From positions 1 through 64,000 of the forward strand of contig CAUJCU010000016.1 in the NCBI GenBank assembly GCA_963169745.1: a DNA stretch of 64,000 nt, in the 5' to 3' direction. This document shows positions 26,906 through 40,161 of the stretch, piece after piece. The notes below the pieces were generated by a model. That model ran no database searches. It saw nothing but the letters and a program-made list of their open reading frames with translations, and was not told where the DNA came from. The DNA is from Bacteroidota bacterium (lineage in GTDB: Bacteria > Bacteroidota > Bacteroidia > UBA4408). A program made the position numbers and the translations under genes. Each line of letters starts with the position of its first letter. Within the stretch, counting starts at the first letter, position 1.

Positions 26906-28063
26906 ATGCCTATATATCATAAACTTGGAAATATACCACAAAAAAGACATGTTGTTTTTAAAAACGAAAAAGGGCAACATCAATACGAACAATTATTCGG
27001 AACCGAAGGTTTTCATAGCCACTCCTCGCTCCTGTATCACGTTCACCGGCCTACACAGGTTAAAGAAATAACTAAAACCTATGATGTAACACCAGAAATT
27101 GCCGTTGAAAAAAATATTAAAGCCATATTGCTTAGTGGGTTTGATATTCAGCCCGAAAATGACTTTTTGGAAAGTCGTAAAGACTTGTTTGTAAATAGTG
27201 ATTGTACTATTGGATTAGCTGCTCCCAAAGAAAGTTTAACCGGCTATTTCTATAAAAATGCTGATGCCGATGAAATGATTTTTGTACATCAAGGAAAAGG
27301 AAAATTAAGAACTTTTATGGGGAATATTAATTTTGAATATGGCGATTACCTGATAATACCCCGTGGCATGATTTATCAAATTGAATTTGAAACTACTGAC
27401 AACCGCTTACTTTATGTTGAAACCTTTCATGCTATATACACCCCTAAAAGATACAAAAGTTCATCGGGTCAGTTATTGGAACACTCACCCTTTTGTGAAC
27501 GCGATTATAAGCTACCAACTGAACTTGAAACACATAACCAAAAAGGCGATTTTTTGATGAAAGTAAAAAAAGAAGGAGTTATTCATGAAGTTATTTTTGC
27601 TACACACCCCTTTGACGTGGTTGGCTGGGATGGTTATAATTATCCCTGGGGTTTTAGTATTCATAATTTTGAGCCTATAACAGGTCGTGTACACTTGCCT
27701 CCGCCAATTCATCAAACTTTCGAAACACCCGCTATGGTTATTTGCTCTTTTTGCCCGCGATTGTACGATTATCATCCACAAGCTGTTCCGGCTCCATACA
27801 ACCATAGTAATATTGATAGTGATGAATTGTTATACTATGTGGACGGTGATTTTATGAGCCGCAACAATATTAAAAAAGGAAACATTACCTTGCACCCTAA
27901 AGGCATGGCTCATGGCCCGGCTCCAGGAGCTATGGAAAGAAGTGTTGGACAAAAAGAGACAAAAGAACTTGCCGTAATGATTGATACTTTTAAACCCTTA
28001 AAAATTACGAAGCAAGCCATCCAAATTAGTGACCCAAACTATTATAAAAGTTGGGTTGAGTAA
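26906..28063 (+). CDS. hmgA: Homogentisate 1,2-dioxygenase
   Basis: The enzyme opens the ring of homogentisate in tyrosine catabolism using Fe(II) and oxygen. The 385 residues show the family start (YHKLGNIPQKRHVVF), two cupin-like halves, and the C-terminal metal region DGDFMSRNNIKKGNITLHPKG then MAHGPAPGAMERS. It precedes hpd by 45 nt, and together they convert 4-hydroxyphenylpyruvate to maleylacetoacetate. A partial promoter element TAAATTTG lies at 26876-26883. Confidence 0.93.
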   Translation: MPIYHKLGNIPQKRHVVFKNEKGQHQYEQLFGTEGFHSHSSLLYHVHRPTQVKEITKTYDVTPEIAVEKNIKAILLSGFDIQPENDFLESRKDLFVNSDCTIGLAAPKESLTGYFYKNADADEMIFVHQGKGKLRTFMGNINFEYGDYLIIPRGMIYQIEFETTDNRLLYVETFHAIYTPKRYKSSSGQLLEHSPFCERDYKLPTELETHNQKGDFLMKVKKEGVIHEVIFATHPFDVVGWDGYNYPWGFSIHNFEPITGRVHLPPPIHQTFETPAMVICSFCPRLYDYHPQAVPAPYNHSNIDSDELLYYVDGDFMSRNNIKKGNITLHPKGMAHGPAPGAMERSVGQKETKELAVMIDTFKPLKITKQAIQISDPNYYKSWVE

Positions 28064-28108
28064 TCTATTAATCACAGAAACTATAAATTACATATAAAAA
28101 TTACAGCT

Positions 28109-29266
28109 ATGAAAAGTGTAACAAATGTAGAGTATGGACTCGAAAAAATTTTTGAAGGAGCCCAAGATTTTTTACCCCTTTTAGGAACCGATTATGTTGA
28201 GTTTTATGTAGGTAATGCAAAACAAGCAGCTCACTACTACAAAACAGCTTTTGGCTTTCAATCATTTGCCTATGCAGGTCTTGAAACAGGTTTAAAAGAC
28301 CGTACCAGCTATGTTATTAAGCAAGATAAAATTAAATTGGTATTAACAACGGCCTTAAACAGTCAATCTCCCATTAGCGAGCATGTAAAAAAACATGGTG
28401 ATGGTGTAAAAGTAATTGCTCTTTGGGTTGAAGATGCCCGTAAATCATGGGAAGAAACCACTAAACGTGGTGCTAAATCGTTTATGGAACCCACCGTTGA
28501 GAAAGACACACACGGACAAACAGTGCGATCTGGTATTTATGCCTATGGTGAAACAGTGCATATTTTTGTAGAACGTAAAGACTATAAAGGTTTGTTTTTA
28601 CCCAACTTTGTAGCTTGGGAAAGCGAATACAACCCCGCTCCTACCGGACTTAAATTTATTGATCATATTGTAGGCAATGTTGGTTGGGGCGAAATGAACA
28701 CCTGGGTTGAATGGTACGAAAAAGTTATGGGTTTTGTTAATTTTCTATCGTTTGATGATAAACAGATTCATACTGAATACTCGGCCTTAATGAGCAAAGT
28801 GATGAGCAATGGAAACGGGCGCATAAAATTCCCAATTAATGAACCTGCCAAGGGAAAAAAACGTTCCCAAATTGAAGAATATCTTGATTTTTATGAAGGA
28901 CCTGGAGCACAACATTTAGCCGTTGCCACCGATAATATTATTGAAACAGTTAAAGCTATGCGTAACCGTGGTGTTGAGTTTCTATCAGCACCACCACACG
29001 CTTATTATGAAGAAGTTCCTGATCGACTTGGAAAGCATTTCAGCATGTTTAACCAAGACCTATCAGAATTAGAAAAATTAGGTATTTTAATAGATGCTGA
29101 TGAAGAAGGCTACTTGCTTCAGATATTTACAAAGCCTGTTGAGGATCGGCCTACACTATTTTATGAAATTATACAACGGATGGGTGCCAGAGGATTTGGG
29201 GCCGGTAATTTTAAAGCCTTGTTTGAGTCTATTGAACGTGAGCAGGAAAAGCGTGGAACGCTCTAA
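28109..29266 (+). CDS. hpd: 4-Hydroxyphenylpyruvate dioxygenase
   Basis: The enzyme turns 4-hydroxyphenylpyruvate into homogentisate, the substrate of hmgA just upstream. The 385 residues have two VOC domains. Iron ligands are visible in the C-terminal one: His in LKFIDHIVGNVGWGEM, His in GAQHLAVATDNI and Glu in PTLFYEIIQRMG. The family ending GFGAGNFKALFESIEREQ is present. The first step of the route (an aminotransferase) and the last (a canonical FAH) are not in this window. Confidence 0.95.
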   Translation: MKSVTNVEYGLEKIFEGAQDFLPLLGTDYVEFYVGNAKQAAHYYKTAFGFQSFAYAGLETGLKDRTSYVIKQDKIKLVLTTALNSQSPISEHVKKHGDGVKVIALWVEDARKSWEETTKRGAKSFMEPTVEKDTHGQTVRSGIYAYGETVHIFVERKDYKGLFLPNFVAWESEYNPAPTGLKFIDHIVGNVGWGEMNTWVEWYEKVMGFVNFLSFDDKQIHTEYSALMSKVMSNGNGRIKFPINEPAKGKKRSQIEEYLDFYEGPGAQHLAVATDNIIETVKAMRNRGVEFLSAPPHAYYEEVPDRLGKHFSMFNQDLSELEKLGILIDADEEGYLLQIFTKPVEDRPTLFYEIIQRMGARGFGAGNFKALFESIEREQEKRGTL

Positions 29267-33366: not shown

Positions 33367-35667
33367 TTATTTAAACTGAATAGTAATTTCAACTCTATTA
33401 TTTGCATCTCTGCCTTCTGCAGTATTATTATCTGCTATAGAAACGGTATCACCGTAAGGTGTAATTTTTAATCGGTCATTGTTAATCCCCTTTCCTATAA
33501 AAAACTCTATAAGATTTGTTGCTCGGTCTTTGGTAAGGGTCATTGCAAAAGAATTACTTCCCGAATTGTCGGTAAATACATTAATAACCAAAATAATAGA
33601 AAGATTATTTTTCATCATTTGAACCAAGTGATCCAAGTGAACAAAAGAAACTCCAAGTAACTCATCTTTCCCAGTTTCAAATTTTATATGTTCTACAGCT
33701 TCCTTAACTATTAAGGCTTCTTCCGGTAGTGGTTCAGGACAACCTTTATTAGCAACACTACCCTTTGTTAATGGACACAAATCTTCTCTATCTAAGACCC
33801 CATCTAAATCAGTATCTTTATCAGGGCAGCCAAAATTCTCTTTTAACCCCGGTTCTGTTGGGCAGTGATCATCAATATCCGGAACCCCATCTTTATCAGT
33901 ATCTATTGGGCAACCATTATTATCTCTTGGCCCAAACTCATTAGGACATAAGTCATCTTTATCCGGTATTCCATCACCATCTGTATCCGGGCAGCCCCTA
34001 AACTCTGGCAAGCCTTTAACATCCGGGCAATCATCATCATCATCTTTTACTCCATCTTCATCTCTATCCGGGCAACCCTGAAAACGGGATATTCCCGGGG
34101 TATCCGGGCATTTATCAAATTTATCTATAATTTTATCCCCATCTCTATCAGGACAACCGCCCAACAGTGCTTTTCCATACTCATCGGGGCACTGATCTTC
34201 GAAATCGGGCACACCATCGTTATCCCGATCAGGACAACCATGAGTAGCAGGAAGCCCCTTGTGATTACGGCACTTATCTTCAAAATCAGGAACTCCATCG
34301 CCATCACTATCATCCAAATAGGAATCATTCCCAAAACGTAAATTTACACCAATTCGTAGGTTAAATGTTTTTACACTTTGAGGAAAAACAGCACCAAGAA
34401 TATTGTCGCTAATAATATAATATTGAGTACCACCCCAAGAGTTAATGCACAAACCAAGACCTAAATTAGAAAAGCTATTATTAAAAATAGAATAGTTCAT
34501 GTTAAGGTGTATAAGTTCGGTTAACTGCCCGCCTATAAATGCACTTAGACCCGGACGCATTTTGCCATCAAAGAACAAACCATGGAGCAAAAGTCCTGTA
34601 TTATACTTCTCTGCAATTTGATAGGTTCCCCCTAAGTATATTTGCCGGTTAAGCTTTGAGCGGTAGCTGTGGTATGTAGTATCTATTCTAAAACTGGCAT
34701 AAGCAGAATCTAAAGTTTTATTAAAGGCTTGATTTAAACTCGTAGTATCATTAATCAAATCGGCTATGTATAAACCTCTAAAGGTGTATATATCTTGTGG
34801 ATTACGGGTTACTAAGTTATAGGGCTTATGATTCCAATTGATTCCTCCAAAATCTAATAGGGTGGCACTTACCGTTATTTTTGGAGTAACTTTATACTGT
34901 GCTCCTAAATCAACTGCAAATCCTGTATTTTTTAAGCCCAAAAAATATTCTTTCCAATTTTTGTCTGCTCCAAAAACTTCTTTATAATTCCCTGATTTAT
35001 TAAATAAAATATCTGATTGTACTCTTAAATTGTAGTCTGTTGGGTCGGTATAAAGTTTAACATCGGCTTTTTTGGTCTGTATATTCTCCATACCATAAAG
35101 GTACTTTAATTTAACCCCTCCTGTCCATTGTGAGTTAATTTGCCGAACATAGTTAATACCATACTCCCGGTAATGGGTGTATTGAAAACCTGCCGCAAAA
35201 TTAATGGTTTGCCCAATAGAAGGCCCGTTCCCGTTCCATAAAAAATCAACTAAGTCCTTGCTGTAACTGGCAACAGAAGTTATTTTTTCAGTAGCGCTAA
35301 ATTGAATAAAATTTTTATTAATCCGAAAACCAAAAGCGAGCAAATCAGTCTCAAAATTTCCCAATAAATAGTTTTTATCTTTCATCCGATTTATAGCCTT
35401 ATTCATGTCAATTATCAAAGAGTCATCACTTCTTTTTTGAACAATATCCTGATAAGCAAAAGTAGTATTAGTAAATCCAAAATAAGTTGAAGATAAGAAC
35501 GGAATGTTTATATTGTAGTCACTCGTAGGAAAAAAACTGGGATTGCAAGAAATGTTCTGATTCAAATATTGCATATTGTACAAAACATAATTTTGCTGTG
35601 CCCAAGAATGATTCTTAAAGCCGATCAAAAAAACGAATCCAATAAAAAAGCGAAAAAGTATTTTCAT
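33367..35667 (-). CDS. Outer-membrane protein with DUF5723-like, TSP3 and OmpA domains
   Basis: The 766-residue protein has a signal peptide (residues 1-23) and a barrel-like N-terminal domain of about 430 residues (NYVLYNMQYLNQNISCNPSF, DUF5723-like). It is followed by about ten thrombospondin type 3 repeats (about 450-640; D-x-D-x-D-G-V-P-D-x-x-D-x-C-P), which bind calcium. A C-terminal OmpA domain (about 645-766) contains KITPYGDTVSIADNN and RDANNRVEITIQFK, which would tether it to peptidoglycan. It links the outer membrane to the cell wall. Its 5' leader holds the palindrome at 35669-35686. Confidence 0.88.
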   Translation of the reverse strand: MKILFRFFIGFVFLIGFKNHSWAQQNYVLYNMQYLNQNISCNPSFFPTSDYNINIPFLSSTYFGFTNTTFAYQDIVQKRSDDSLIIDMNKAINRMKDKNYLLGNFETDLLAFGFRINKNFIQFSATEKITSVASYSKDLVDFLWNGNGPSIGQTINFAAGFQYTHYREYGINYVRQINSQWTGGVKLKYLYGMENIQTKKADVKLYTDPTDYNLRVQSDILFNKSGNYKEVFGADKNWKEYFLGLKNTGFAVDLGAQYKVTPKITVSATLLDFGGINWNHKPYNLVTRNPQDIYTFRGLYIADLINDTTSLNQAFNKTLDSAYASFRIDTTYHSYRSKLNRQIYLGGTYQIAEKYNTGLLLHGLFFDGKMRPGLSAFIGGQLTELIHLNMNYSIFNNSFSNLGLGLCINSWGGTQYYIISDNILGAVFPQSVKTFNLRIGVNLRFGNDSYLDDSDGDGVPDFEDKCRNHKGLPATHGCPDRDNDGVPDFEDQCPDEYGKALLGGCPDRDGDKIIDKFDKCPDTPGISRFQGCPDRDEDGVKDDDDDCPDVKGLPEFRGCPDTDGDGIPDKDDLCPNEFGPRDNNGCPIDTDKDGVPDIDDHCPTEPGLKENFGCPDKDTDLDGVLDREDLCPLTKGSVANKGCPEPLPEEALIVKEAVEHIKFETGKDELLGVSFVHLDHLVQMMKNNLSIILVINVFTDNSGSNSFAMTLTKDRATNLIEFFIGKGINNDRLKITPYGDTVSIADNNTAEGRDANNRVEITIQFK

Positions 35668-36420: not shown

Positions 36421-37848
36421 TTATATATCACTTTCTATCAGTTCTCTTAATGTATTTATCAAAATATCTATTTCTCTTTTATGTGTTCTGAATGAAAGTA
36501 TGGCAATACGTAACCAAAACGCCCCGTCTATGTTAGTTGATGAAATAAACACTTTACCATCATCATGAATTTTTTTAAGCACATTACGATTAAATGTATC
36601 GCGGTCAGTTTTTTGGGGATTATAGCGATAAACAGCAACGGTTAAATCGGGTGTATGACCCAGTTCAAAGCCCAATTTTTGAATACTTTCACAAAAGTAG
36701 CGCATCAGTTCTAACTTCTCATTTAAGCACATTTCAAATGGCTTTACGCCATGTATTTTTAAAGGGAGCCACATCCGTAAACCTCTAAAATTACGACTCA
36801 TCTCTGGTGAAAGATCCATAGGCGAAAGCTCCTGCTCATAGTCTTTAGCATCTTGCATATACGATGGACTATAACTAAAAGTGTTTAATAAGTGATTCGC
36901 TTGCTTTAACAACACAATACCTGTACCATAAGGAAGAAACAAACCTTTATGGGGGTCTAAAACTACCGAATCAGCCAACTCTATTCCTTTTAACTTTTTC
37001 TTTCCATGCTCTGTTAGCATAAAAAAGCCCCCATAAGCGGCATCCACATGAAGCCATAGGTTTTGTTTCGTGCAAATTGCTGCTATCCTTTGCAAATCAT
37101 CGGTAGCTCCTACATCTGTAGAACCGGCATTAGCAATAACTAAAAAGGGACTAAGATTTAATTGTCGGTCATTTTCTATTTGATTTTCAAGCTCAGATAC
37201 CTGCATTTTAAACTGAATATCGGTAGGTATATAACGCAGCACACACTCGTCAAGACTCAATAAACGCAATGCTTTTAACACGCTGTGGTGCGTTTGTTTT
37301 GTGGTGTAAATAACGGAGTTCTCAATATTTCTGCTTTTAATATTATGGGCTGTTTTAGCACCAGCCAGGGCAGTTAAATTAGCAATACTCCCACCAGAAG
37401 TTAAATTTCCGGCAAAGTTCTTTTTATACCCAATTAAATTGCCTGCCCAACGTATAAGAGCATTTTCAATACGTACCGCTCCGGGCGATGCATAAAAGAC
37501 ACCGGCATAACGATTTGTTACAGCAGCTATAAAATCACCAAGAGCAGCCGTGTAAATACCCCCACCGGGAATATAGCCCAAGTGGCCTCCTGAGGCTGGA
37601 TTTAAACCGGGCTGATCAACGCGGTCATGAAGCAATCCAAGCAAATCTTTTAGTCCTGTGATATCCTCATCAATATAAAAATCGCTATCTTGAGGTACTT
37701 TATTGTACTTGTCGCCTTGATATGCTTTCTGTTCCGATAATGTGTCTAAAAAATTGTCTGTATATTCTTGTACTATATGCATTAAACGTGTTCGGCCCTC
37801 TAATGTAGGTTCAAGATTCATGTCCTTGTCTAATGGTGGTGTTATCAT
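36421..37848 (-). CDS. PLP-dependent group II decarboxylase
   Basis: The 475-residue enzyme belongs to the aromatic-amino-acid/glutamate decarboxylase family. The PLP lysine is in VLDPHKGLFLPYGTG (about residue 298), the Asp that holds the pyridine ring is in LWLHVDAAYGG (about 268), and SGGSIANLTAL binds phosphate. Length and motifs fit L-amino-acid decarboxylases that use aromatic substrates, but the exact amino acid is unknown. No transporter or regulator is adjacent. Confidence 0.87.
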   Translation of the reverse strand: MITPPLDKDMNLEPTLEGRTRLMHIVQEYTDNFLDTLSEQKAYQGDKYNKVPQDSDFYIDEDITGLKDLLGLLHDRVDQPGLNPASGGHLGYIPGGGIYTAALGDFIAAVTNRYAGVFYASPGAVRIENALIRWAGNLIGYKKNFAGNLTSGGSIANLTALAGAKTAHNIKSRNIENSVIYTTKQTHHSVLKALRLLSLDECVLRYIPTDIQFKMQVSELENQIENDRQLNLSPFLVIANAGSTDVGATDDLQRIAAICTKQNLWLHVDAAYGGFFMLTEHGKKKLKGIELADSVVLDPHKGLFLPYGTGIVLLKQANHLLNTFSYSPSYMQDAKDYEQELSPMDLSPEMSRNFRGLRMWLPLKIHGVKPFEMCLNEKLELMRYFCESIQKLGFELGHTPDLTVAVYRYNPQKTDRDTFNRNVLKKIHDDGKVFISSTNIDGAFWLRIAILSFRTHKREIDILINTLRELIESDI

Positions 37849-38291: not shown

Positions 38292-39392
38292 ATGTATCGG
38301 ATTAAATATATAACCATTTTAAAACTATTTTTTTTATTTCTATTGTGGTTTGCACCTTCAGCAGGACAAGCACAAGTACAAAATAAAATGCTGTTGGTGG
38401 GTATTACCGGTAATAAACCATTTGTGTTAGATACGCTTTCGCCAAGTGGTATTTCAATTGAAATTTGGACCACCTTAGCTCAGGTGCTCAATTTAGACTA
38501 CAAAACACAGTATTTTTCTGATCCTAACCAGGCACTTAAGGCATTGGAACAGGGCCATATTGATGTGCTTATTGGCCCCCTCAATATTACTTCACAAAGA
38601 GCTTCAAAAGTCACTTTTTCACAACCCTATTTTCAAGCGAGTATTTCAATTCTTTCGCTAAAAAAAGATCCATCATTGTGGCAAAGGGTAAAACCCTTTT
38701 TTAGTGAAAAGTTTCTGTATGCGGTTATAATTTTCATTTCTATTTTAGCTATAGTGGGTACTTTGCTATGGTTAGTAGAGCGCAAACAAAATCCTGATCA
38801 ATTTCCGTCTAAACCAGCACGAGGCATAGGTAATGGTATGTGGTGCGCCATTTCTACAATGACTACGGCTGGCTTTGGCGATATCGTTCCGATTACATTT
38901 TGGGGTCGGTTTTTAACCGGTACTTGGATGGTTATTTCATTGATAATGGCCACCAGTATGGTTGCCGGTATTGCAAGTACGCTAACCCTAACCGGCATGA
39001 AAAGCATTACCATTACTGAAGCCGAACAGTTATCCGGAAAAAAAACGGGCGTTATATCGGGCACACCATCTTATGATTTTTGTAAAAGGTATGGTGCCCA
39101 ACTGGTAAAAATTAACAACATAGAAGATGGTTATCAATTGCTTAACAATGGAAAAATTGATGCTGTGGTTAATGACAGAACACAATTACAATATTTTATA
39201 CATCAAAAAAACATAACGAATGCCAGCCTATCAATAACTGAATACGAACGGCATGGTTACGGTTTTGCTTTCAGACCCAACGAACCTATAACCCATAGTG
39301 TTAATGTGGAATTACTTAATTTACAAGAAAACGGTGTGATAGATGATATTATTTTAAAGTGGTTAAATATTAAGCATGGCCAACCAAAATAA
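38292..39392 (+). CDS. Ligand-gated K+ channel, prokaryotic glutamate-receptor (GluR0) type
   Basis: The 366-residue protein has a signal peptide (residues 1-28) and a solute-binding lobe 1 (about 33-128). Membrane helix M1 lies at about 140-162. A pore loop has the K+ selectivity sequence TTAGFGDIVP (191-200), followed by M2 (about 207-230) and lobe 2 (about 240-360). This S1-M1-P-M2-S2 order is that of GluR0 and related bacterial ionotropic receptors, in which a periplasmic amino acid opens a K+ pore. TxxGFGD is a recognised K+ filter variant (TVGYGD in most channels). The ligand is unknown. The gene converges with the SIMPL gene. Confidence 0.9.
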   Translation: MYRIKYITILKLFFLFLLWFAPSAGQAQVQNKMLLVGITGNKPFVLDTLSPSGISIEIWTTLAQVLNLDYKTQYFSDPNQALKALEQGHIDVLIGPLNITSQRASKVTFSQPYFQASISILSLKKDPSLWQRVKPFFSEKFLYAVIIFISILAIVGTLLWLVERKQNPDQFPSKPARGIGNGMWCAISTMTTAGFGDIVPITFWGRFLTGTWMVISLIMATSMVAGIASTLTLTGMKSITITEAEQLSGKKTGVISGTPSYDFCKRYGAQLVKINNIEDGYQLLNNGKIDAVVNDRTQLQYFIHQKNITNASLSITEYERHGYGFAFRPNEPITHSVNVELLNLQENGVIDDIILKWLNIKHGQPK

Positions 39393-39402
39393 AGTAATTA
39401 GC

Positions 39403-40161
39403 TTATTCAATAGAATAATCAATATTGACAACCACCTTTACCTTCTTATAAATATCGTTTACATTCGGGTCAAAAAAGCCCCCATCCCCGGTGTTCGCCA
39501 TTACCGAATAATCTCTGTCAACAATAGAAAACAAGCCTTGACTTGCTCTTTGAAGCTTTCCTAATTTTACACCACTTTCTTTGGTAAATTCTATGGCTGC
39601 TTTCTTTGCATTTTGTGTTGCTTCCGAAAGCATTTGTGGTTTAATATCATTTAAACGGGTGTATAAAAACTTTACATTAGGGCTATAATCATTTTCAGTA
39701 AGCATAACACCTGCTTTAAATAACTTATCTGTTTGTTTACTTAATTTGGCTATTAAATCAACATTTTCTGATCTTACCTGAATGGAGTTATCAACAATAT
39801 ACCGGAAGGGCCCCATATCATTACTTACATAATCACGAGCCAGCTTATCGGTAACATTAAAGTTCTGTTGAATAATTTCATGGGGTTGTATTCCGCTTTC
39901 GGTTAAGAATTGGAATAATTTTTCTTTGTTCTCTTCAATGGTTTTTGTTCCCTCTAACAAATCATTTGAGGTTACTCGGGTTTTAATTGTCCATACAGAA
40001 AAATTAGATTTTACCTCCTTTTCCGAGAACCCTTTTACGGATATTTTCCGATCTTCTCTCTTAAATTTTTCTAACGATTTTCCAATAAATAAACCATTTA
40101 AGGCAAATCCAAGTGCAACAATGGCAGCCATTGCCAATAGGTTTTTATTTTTAGTTTCCAT
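39403..40161 (-). CDS. SIMPL domain (DUF541) protein
   Basis: The 252-residue protein has an N-terminal membrane anchor or signal (MAAIVALGFALNGLFIGKSL) and a SIMPL domain (about residues 35-250). The domain starts ISVKGFSEKEVKSNFSVW and contains NAKKAAIEFTKESGVKLGKL, the conserved family segment. SIMPL proteins are periplasmic, form oligomers, and have been tied to oxidative stress, but their activity is unknown. It is monocistronic and divergent from the efflux operon. Confidence 0.85.
   Translation of the reverse strand: METKNKNLLAMAAIVALGFALNGLFIGKSLEKFKREDRKISVKGFSEKEVKSNFSVWTIKTRVTSNDLLEGTKTIEENKEKLFQFLTESGIQPHEIIQQNFNVTDKLARDYVSNDMGPFRYIVDNSIQVRSENVDLIAKLSKQTDKLFKAGVMLTENDYSPNVKFLYTRLNDIKPQMLSEATQNAKKAAIEFTKESGVKLGKLQRASQGLFSIVDRDYSVMANTGDGGFFDPNVNDIYKKVKVVVNIDYSIE

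Follow-up and report, generated by a model that had tools for sequence, protein, structure and literature searches.

A divergent GluR0-type channel gene in a Bacteroidota genome with a variant potassium filter and a changed ligand pocket

The window, a stretch of 64,000 nucleotides from a Bacteroidota genome, carries an uninterrupted open reading frame from an ATG start to a TAA stop that encodes 366 amino acids (Table 1). The gene had appeared complete from the sequence alone, and it contains no internal stop. The product of the divergent decarboxylase gene reached none of the NCBIfam cut-offs set for named decarboxylases, and this gene is not adjacent to the channel gene in the relatives. 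Beyond the convergent gene for a SIMPL-domain protein lies a MarR regulator with an apparent RND efflux operon. The GC content around the channel gene, approximately 32-38 %, resembles that of the surroundings, thus the composition gives no sign of a recent transfer. A scan for promoters and terminators around the gene yielded sites no more numerous than in shuffled sequences. Elsewhere in the window, a homogentisate 1,2-dioxygenase-like and a 4-hydroxyphenylpyruvate-dioxygenase-like gene stand side by side (26906-29266, +), a pair probably serving tyrosine degradation, and a reverse-strand gene (33367-35667) codes for a protein of 766 aa with DUF5723, thrombospondin type 3 repeat and OmpA domains, probably an outer-membrane protein.

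Table 1. Features of the channel gene, with the predicted parts of its product, and its direct neighbours
Feature	Coordinates	Strand	Basis or position
Complete gene (366 aa) for a predicted GluR0-type ligand-gated K+ channel subunit	38292..39392	+	ORF, Pfam, PDB sequence match, genome homologues, AlphaFold model, VIA-align
Predicted N-terminal signal peptide, residues 1 to ~28	38292..38375	+	Inferred: sequence, hydropathy, low pLDDT at 24-28
S1 half of the ligand-binding domain, residues ~31-125, with R103 and N98	38382..38666	+	Pfam, PDB sequence alignment, model, 44-row alignment
M1 membrane helix, residues 139-163	38706..38780	+	Hydropathy, model
Re-entrant pore helix (175-190) and selectivity filter TTAGFGD (191-197)	38814..38882	+	Sequence, Pfam, model, alignment
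Inner membrane helix, equivalent to iGluR M3, residues 203-235	38898..38996	+	PDB sequence alignment, model, alignment
S2 half of the ligand-binding domain, residues ~240-361, with D295	39009..39374	+	Pfam, PDB sequence alignment, model, alignment
Group II PLP-dependent decarboxylase	36421..37848	-	Upstream of the channel, divergent
SIMPL-domain protein	39403..40161		Downstream of the channel, convergent

Four Pfam families matched the protein above their curated cut-offs. SBP_bac_3 (E 1.1e-19) spans residues 36-359, and inside this span lie Lig_chan (E 6.6e-15, residues 148-261) and Ion_trans_2 (E 7.9e-9; 35.7 bits against a cut-off of 22.5); Lig_chan-Glu_bd was matched with E 1.1e-7. The best sequence match in the PDB was GluR0 of Synechocystis (Slr1257, 2.2e-26), which covered two pieces, residues 34-121 and 245-359, on either side of the pore. 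Together with the Pfam matches, this describes a ligand core of SBP family 3 that is split into two halves by a membrane segment. Alignments with plant GLR3.4 and with AMPA and NMDA receptors ran through lobe and pore, and full-length homologues were present in other genomes with E values down to 7e-111. The N-terminus is hydrophobic at residues ~6-25 and continues with AGQAQ ahead of the mature S1 lobe, thus a signal peptide is probable. The chain begins with S1 after this segment and ends after S2 at residue 366.

A monomer structure was predicted with AlphaFold2 from 31 aligned sequences (pLDDT 87.8, pTM 0.70). It presents two alpha/beta lobes, between which follow one another the helix 139-163, the pore helix 175-190, the filter loop 191-197 and the helix 203-235. 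The order of lobe, helix, pore loop with TTAGFGD, helix and lobe, as proposed by the sequence-only reading, was thus recovered by hydropathy and model as well as by the Pfam matches, and the re-entrant loop on which that reading had staked its proposal appears in the model as pore helix and filter loop between the membrane helices. The top match in VIA-align was the glutamate-bound GluR0 core 1ii5 (Z 30.6, 1.8 A over 219 residues, 30 % identity), followed by the Nostoc GluR0 2pyy (Z 28.5), also a glutamate complex, with glutamine-binding proteins not far behind. Foldseek aligned the whole chain with AMPA receptor chains comprising the ligand-binding and transmembrane domains (E ~1e-22, TM 0.5-0.6). 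The arrangement of lobes to pore is not fixed by the model, because it is a monomer and superposes on AMPA receptors with a large rmsd over the whole chain (~7-11 A). The proposed relationship of this GluR0 plan to the animal ionotropic receptors is borne out, with GluR0 nearest in sequence and structure and the AMPA receptors alignable.

Proteins of this kind are frequently annotated as solute-binding proteins of ABC transporters or as fused permeases, which would make the gene product no channel at all. Both lobes indeed match the SBP family 3 and the NCBIfam models of glutamine-binding proteins, and judged by the predicted model, GluR0 and binding proteins cannot be distinguished from the fold of their lobes alone. 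What distinguishes them is the pore module, absent from binding proteins: here it interrupts the lobes and includes a filter. The NCBIfam GlnH score of 86.7 bits is far below the cut-off of 303 bits, and neither an ABC permease nor an ABC ATPase was present among the scanned neighbours. We rejected the transporter annotation on the basis of the low score, the pore module inside the lobes and the model, and give it hardly any credence. The protein belongs, with high probability, to the GluR0 family, prokaryotic iGluR Group 1, as one subunit of a ligand-gated and K+-selective channel that would be a tetramer. It is placed in this group because of its sequence, domain order, predicted fold, conserved Arg and Asp and K+-type filter, of which the last four form the direct basis in this study.

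The genome encodes a single Lig_chan protein. Its further potassium inventory comprises one Kup-type K+ transporter and one other Ion_trans_2 protein; TrkH and KdpA were not matched in the genome by Pfam. The other Ion_trans_2 protein, encoded at positions 970-1848 of locus L071, is a 6-TM voltage-sensor-like K+ channel with the filter TTVGFGD and a zinc-ribbon-like CxxC...CxxC tail at its end.

Residues of filter and pocket were compared in an alignment of 44 rows, the window protein included. The usual filter of the relatives is TTVGYGD, present in 33 rows; five rows had S/T-T-T-GYGD, one had STVGYGD, four had lost the filter, and TTAGFGD was confined to the window protein. Two positions of TTAGFGD differ from TTVGYGD, and such departures might turn the protein into a non-selective or non-conducting receptor whose filter no longer selects K+. 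Among relatives in the phylum a complete loss has occurred: L066, L067, L069 and L049 are full-length GluR0-like proteins with intact ligand Arg and Asp that present IVGGTDN, ISGGCEN, LKLKKQD and --IGSSD, respectively, at the filter position, and by their sequences they are candidates for non-selective or non-conducting receptors. The window protein, however, retains T-x-G-[YF]-G-D, and GFG is one of three combinations occurring in functional K+ channels (PMC12332018); it is also present in the 6-TM K+ channel of the same genome. TTAGFGD is therefore compatible with K+ selectivity, and a receptor without K+ selection is improbable. The C-terminal end of the inner helix, MVAGIASTLTL, aligned with the gate region of iGluR M3.

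In the ligand pocket, R103 was invariant (44/44 rows) and D295 was present in 43/44. Asparagine at position 98 was a feature of the window protein only, the remaining 43 rows having Thr or Ser there; PDB sequence alignments placed Ser of GluR0 and Thr of GLR3.4 at the equivalent position. This position presumably corresponds to the ligand contact Thr480 of GluA2. The S2 turn, SGTPSYD, also differs from most relatives. In GluR0, an arginine of S1 holds the alpha-carboxyl group of the ligand and an aspartate of S2 the alpha-amino group, and both are conserved across Group 1 and Group 2 proteins (PMC2950845); R103 and D295 are, as judged from the alignment, these retained residues. The natural ligand may not be glutamate, because N98 replaces Thr/Ser at a presumed ligand-contact position, and this substitution is the best ground for such doubt. 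A channel of the same architecture could have its altered pocket tuned to another amino acid or to a small organic acid, a refinement of the channel assignment more than a rival to it. The unusual S2 turn and the matches of the lobes to models of glutamine, Lys/Arg/Orn and cystine binding proteins, all below cut-off, point in the same direction as N98, while the retention of both holders of the amino-acid backbone and the two glutamate complexes as nearest structures speak against it. We consider a ligand other than glutamate a serious possibility, at slightly less than even chances. The combination of a filter and an Asn98 that are both unique among the 44 rows leaves altered selectivity, an altered ligand or a non-conducting sensor as possible outcomes. 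That pocket (N98) and filter (TTAGFGD) were both retuned in this lineage to sense something other than glutamate, be it another amino acid or a metabolite, is a speculative and rather unlikely proposal.

Counted from the match list, full-length relatives occurred in 31 of 395 sampled genomes of the phylum (~8 %), the own genome included; a tally of 61 takes in matches to the pore only. The count for the class was 14 of 395 sampled genomes (3.5 %), again with the own genome. GluR0-type genes are thus not very rare in the phylum. That few are characterised in Bacteroidota agrees with our literature search, in which no paper was found that names GluR0 together with Bacteroidetes. Seven other genomes of the same order had no full-length relative, and the closest relatives found share at most 48 % identity and belong to another family. 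In the phylogenetic tree the window protein grouped with five relatives of the same class, from the families f9, f33 and f36, on a branch that is not starred (94/87), and together with Flavobacteriaceae proteins they formed a clade of ten (99/96). Members of f33 and f36 were located on two distant branches, a pattern that would fit an old duplication with loss, or a transfer. Within the genus, the search revealed no ortholog similar enough to support a test of selection. In the other genomes of the genus the channel and its two neighbours do not stay together, so that a comparison of the locus did not distinguish gain from loss. The flanking ORFs of eight related loci had no matches to genes of the window beyond the channel and its antisense shadows. 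As the neighbourhood is not conserved in these eight loci, the adjacent PLP-dependent decarboxylase gives no evidence for a shared glutamate pathway. Viral contigs contained no channel relative with the search patterns used.

Synechocystis sp. PCC 6803 GluR0 shares with the window protein the order S1-M1-P-M2-S2, a K+-type filter, the ligand Arg and Asp and the fold of the ligand core, but the identity over this core is 30 %, its filter is of the TXVGYG type and Ser takes the place of Asn98. The Group 1 prokaryotic iGluRs described by Ger et al. 2010 (PMC2950845) have in common with it a K+-like filter between two SBP-3 half-domains and the conserved Arg and Asp, whereas the window protein has a variant filter and pocket and belongs to a small clade with other Bacteroidota families. 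A full-length relative of the Flavobacteriaceae, from Marixanthomonas spongiae, has the same order at ~42 % identity, but carries TTVGYGD, Thr at position 98 and other neighbouring genes. Animal AMPA, kainate and NMDA receptors and plant GLRs share the ligand-core fold, the M1-P-M3 module and an alignable M3 gate region; unlike them, the window protein has neither an amino-terminal domain nor M4 and has kept a K+-type filter.

Homology to GluR0 makes a K+ channel with an inverted pore, gated by an amino acid, the most likely identity of the protein; we infer its tetrameric assembly, its orientation and gating, the K+ flux and its role in the cell from this relative. Once the signal peptide is cleaved, S1 and S2 would form a periplasmic clamshell that binds amino acids; the inverted pore would be built from M1, the re-entrant loop and the inner helix. 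A bound ligand, most probably an L-amino acid, would close the clamshell, and paired clamshells would pull on the inner helices and open the pore. K+ would then flow down its gradient and thereby alter the volume of the cell, its K+ content and its membrane potential. The K+-deficient E. coli LB2003 regains K+ uptake with GluR0, which has periplasmic lobes, requires these lobes and their dimer contacts, and moderates the shrinkage on KCl upshock; direct evidence of a physiological role of the Synechocystis protein was first given in 2026 (PMC13099474).

Channels of this type have been described before; the present copy is a divergent representative of patchy distribution, whose filter and pocket show small changes. 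If pocket and filter were indeed retuned, the bacterium would possess a dedicated K+ conductance gated by an extracellular metabolite. Among the relatives of the animal synaptic receptors, the GluR0-type channels are the simplest. Their scattered representatives in the phylum mostly carry K+-type filters, and some have lost the filter, so that changes from a K+-selective to another pore, and changes of ligand, could be compared within one phylum; the copy in the window is one data point in that series rather than a breakthrough.
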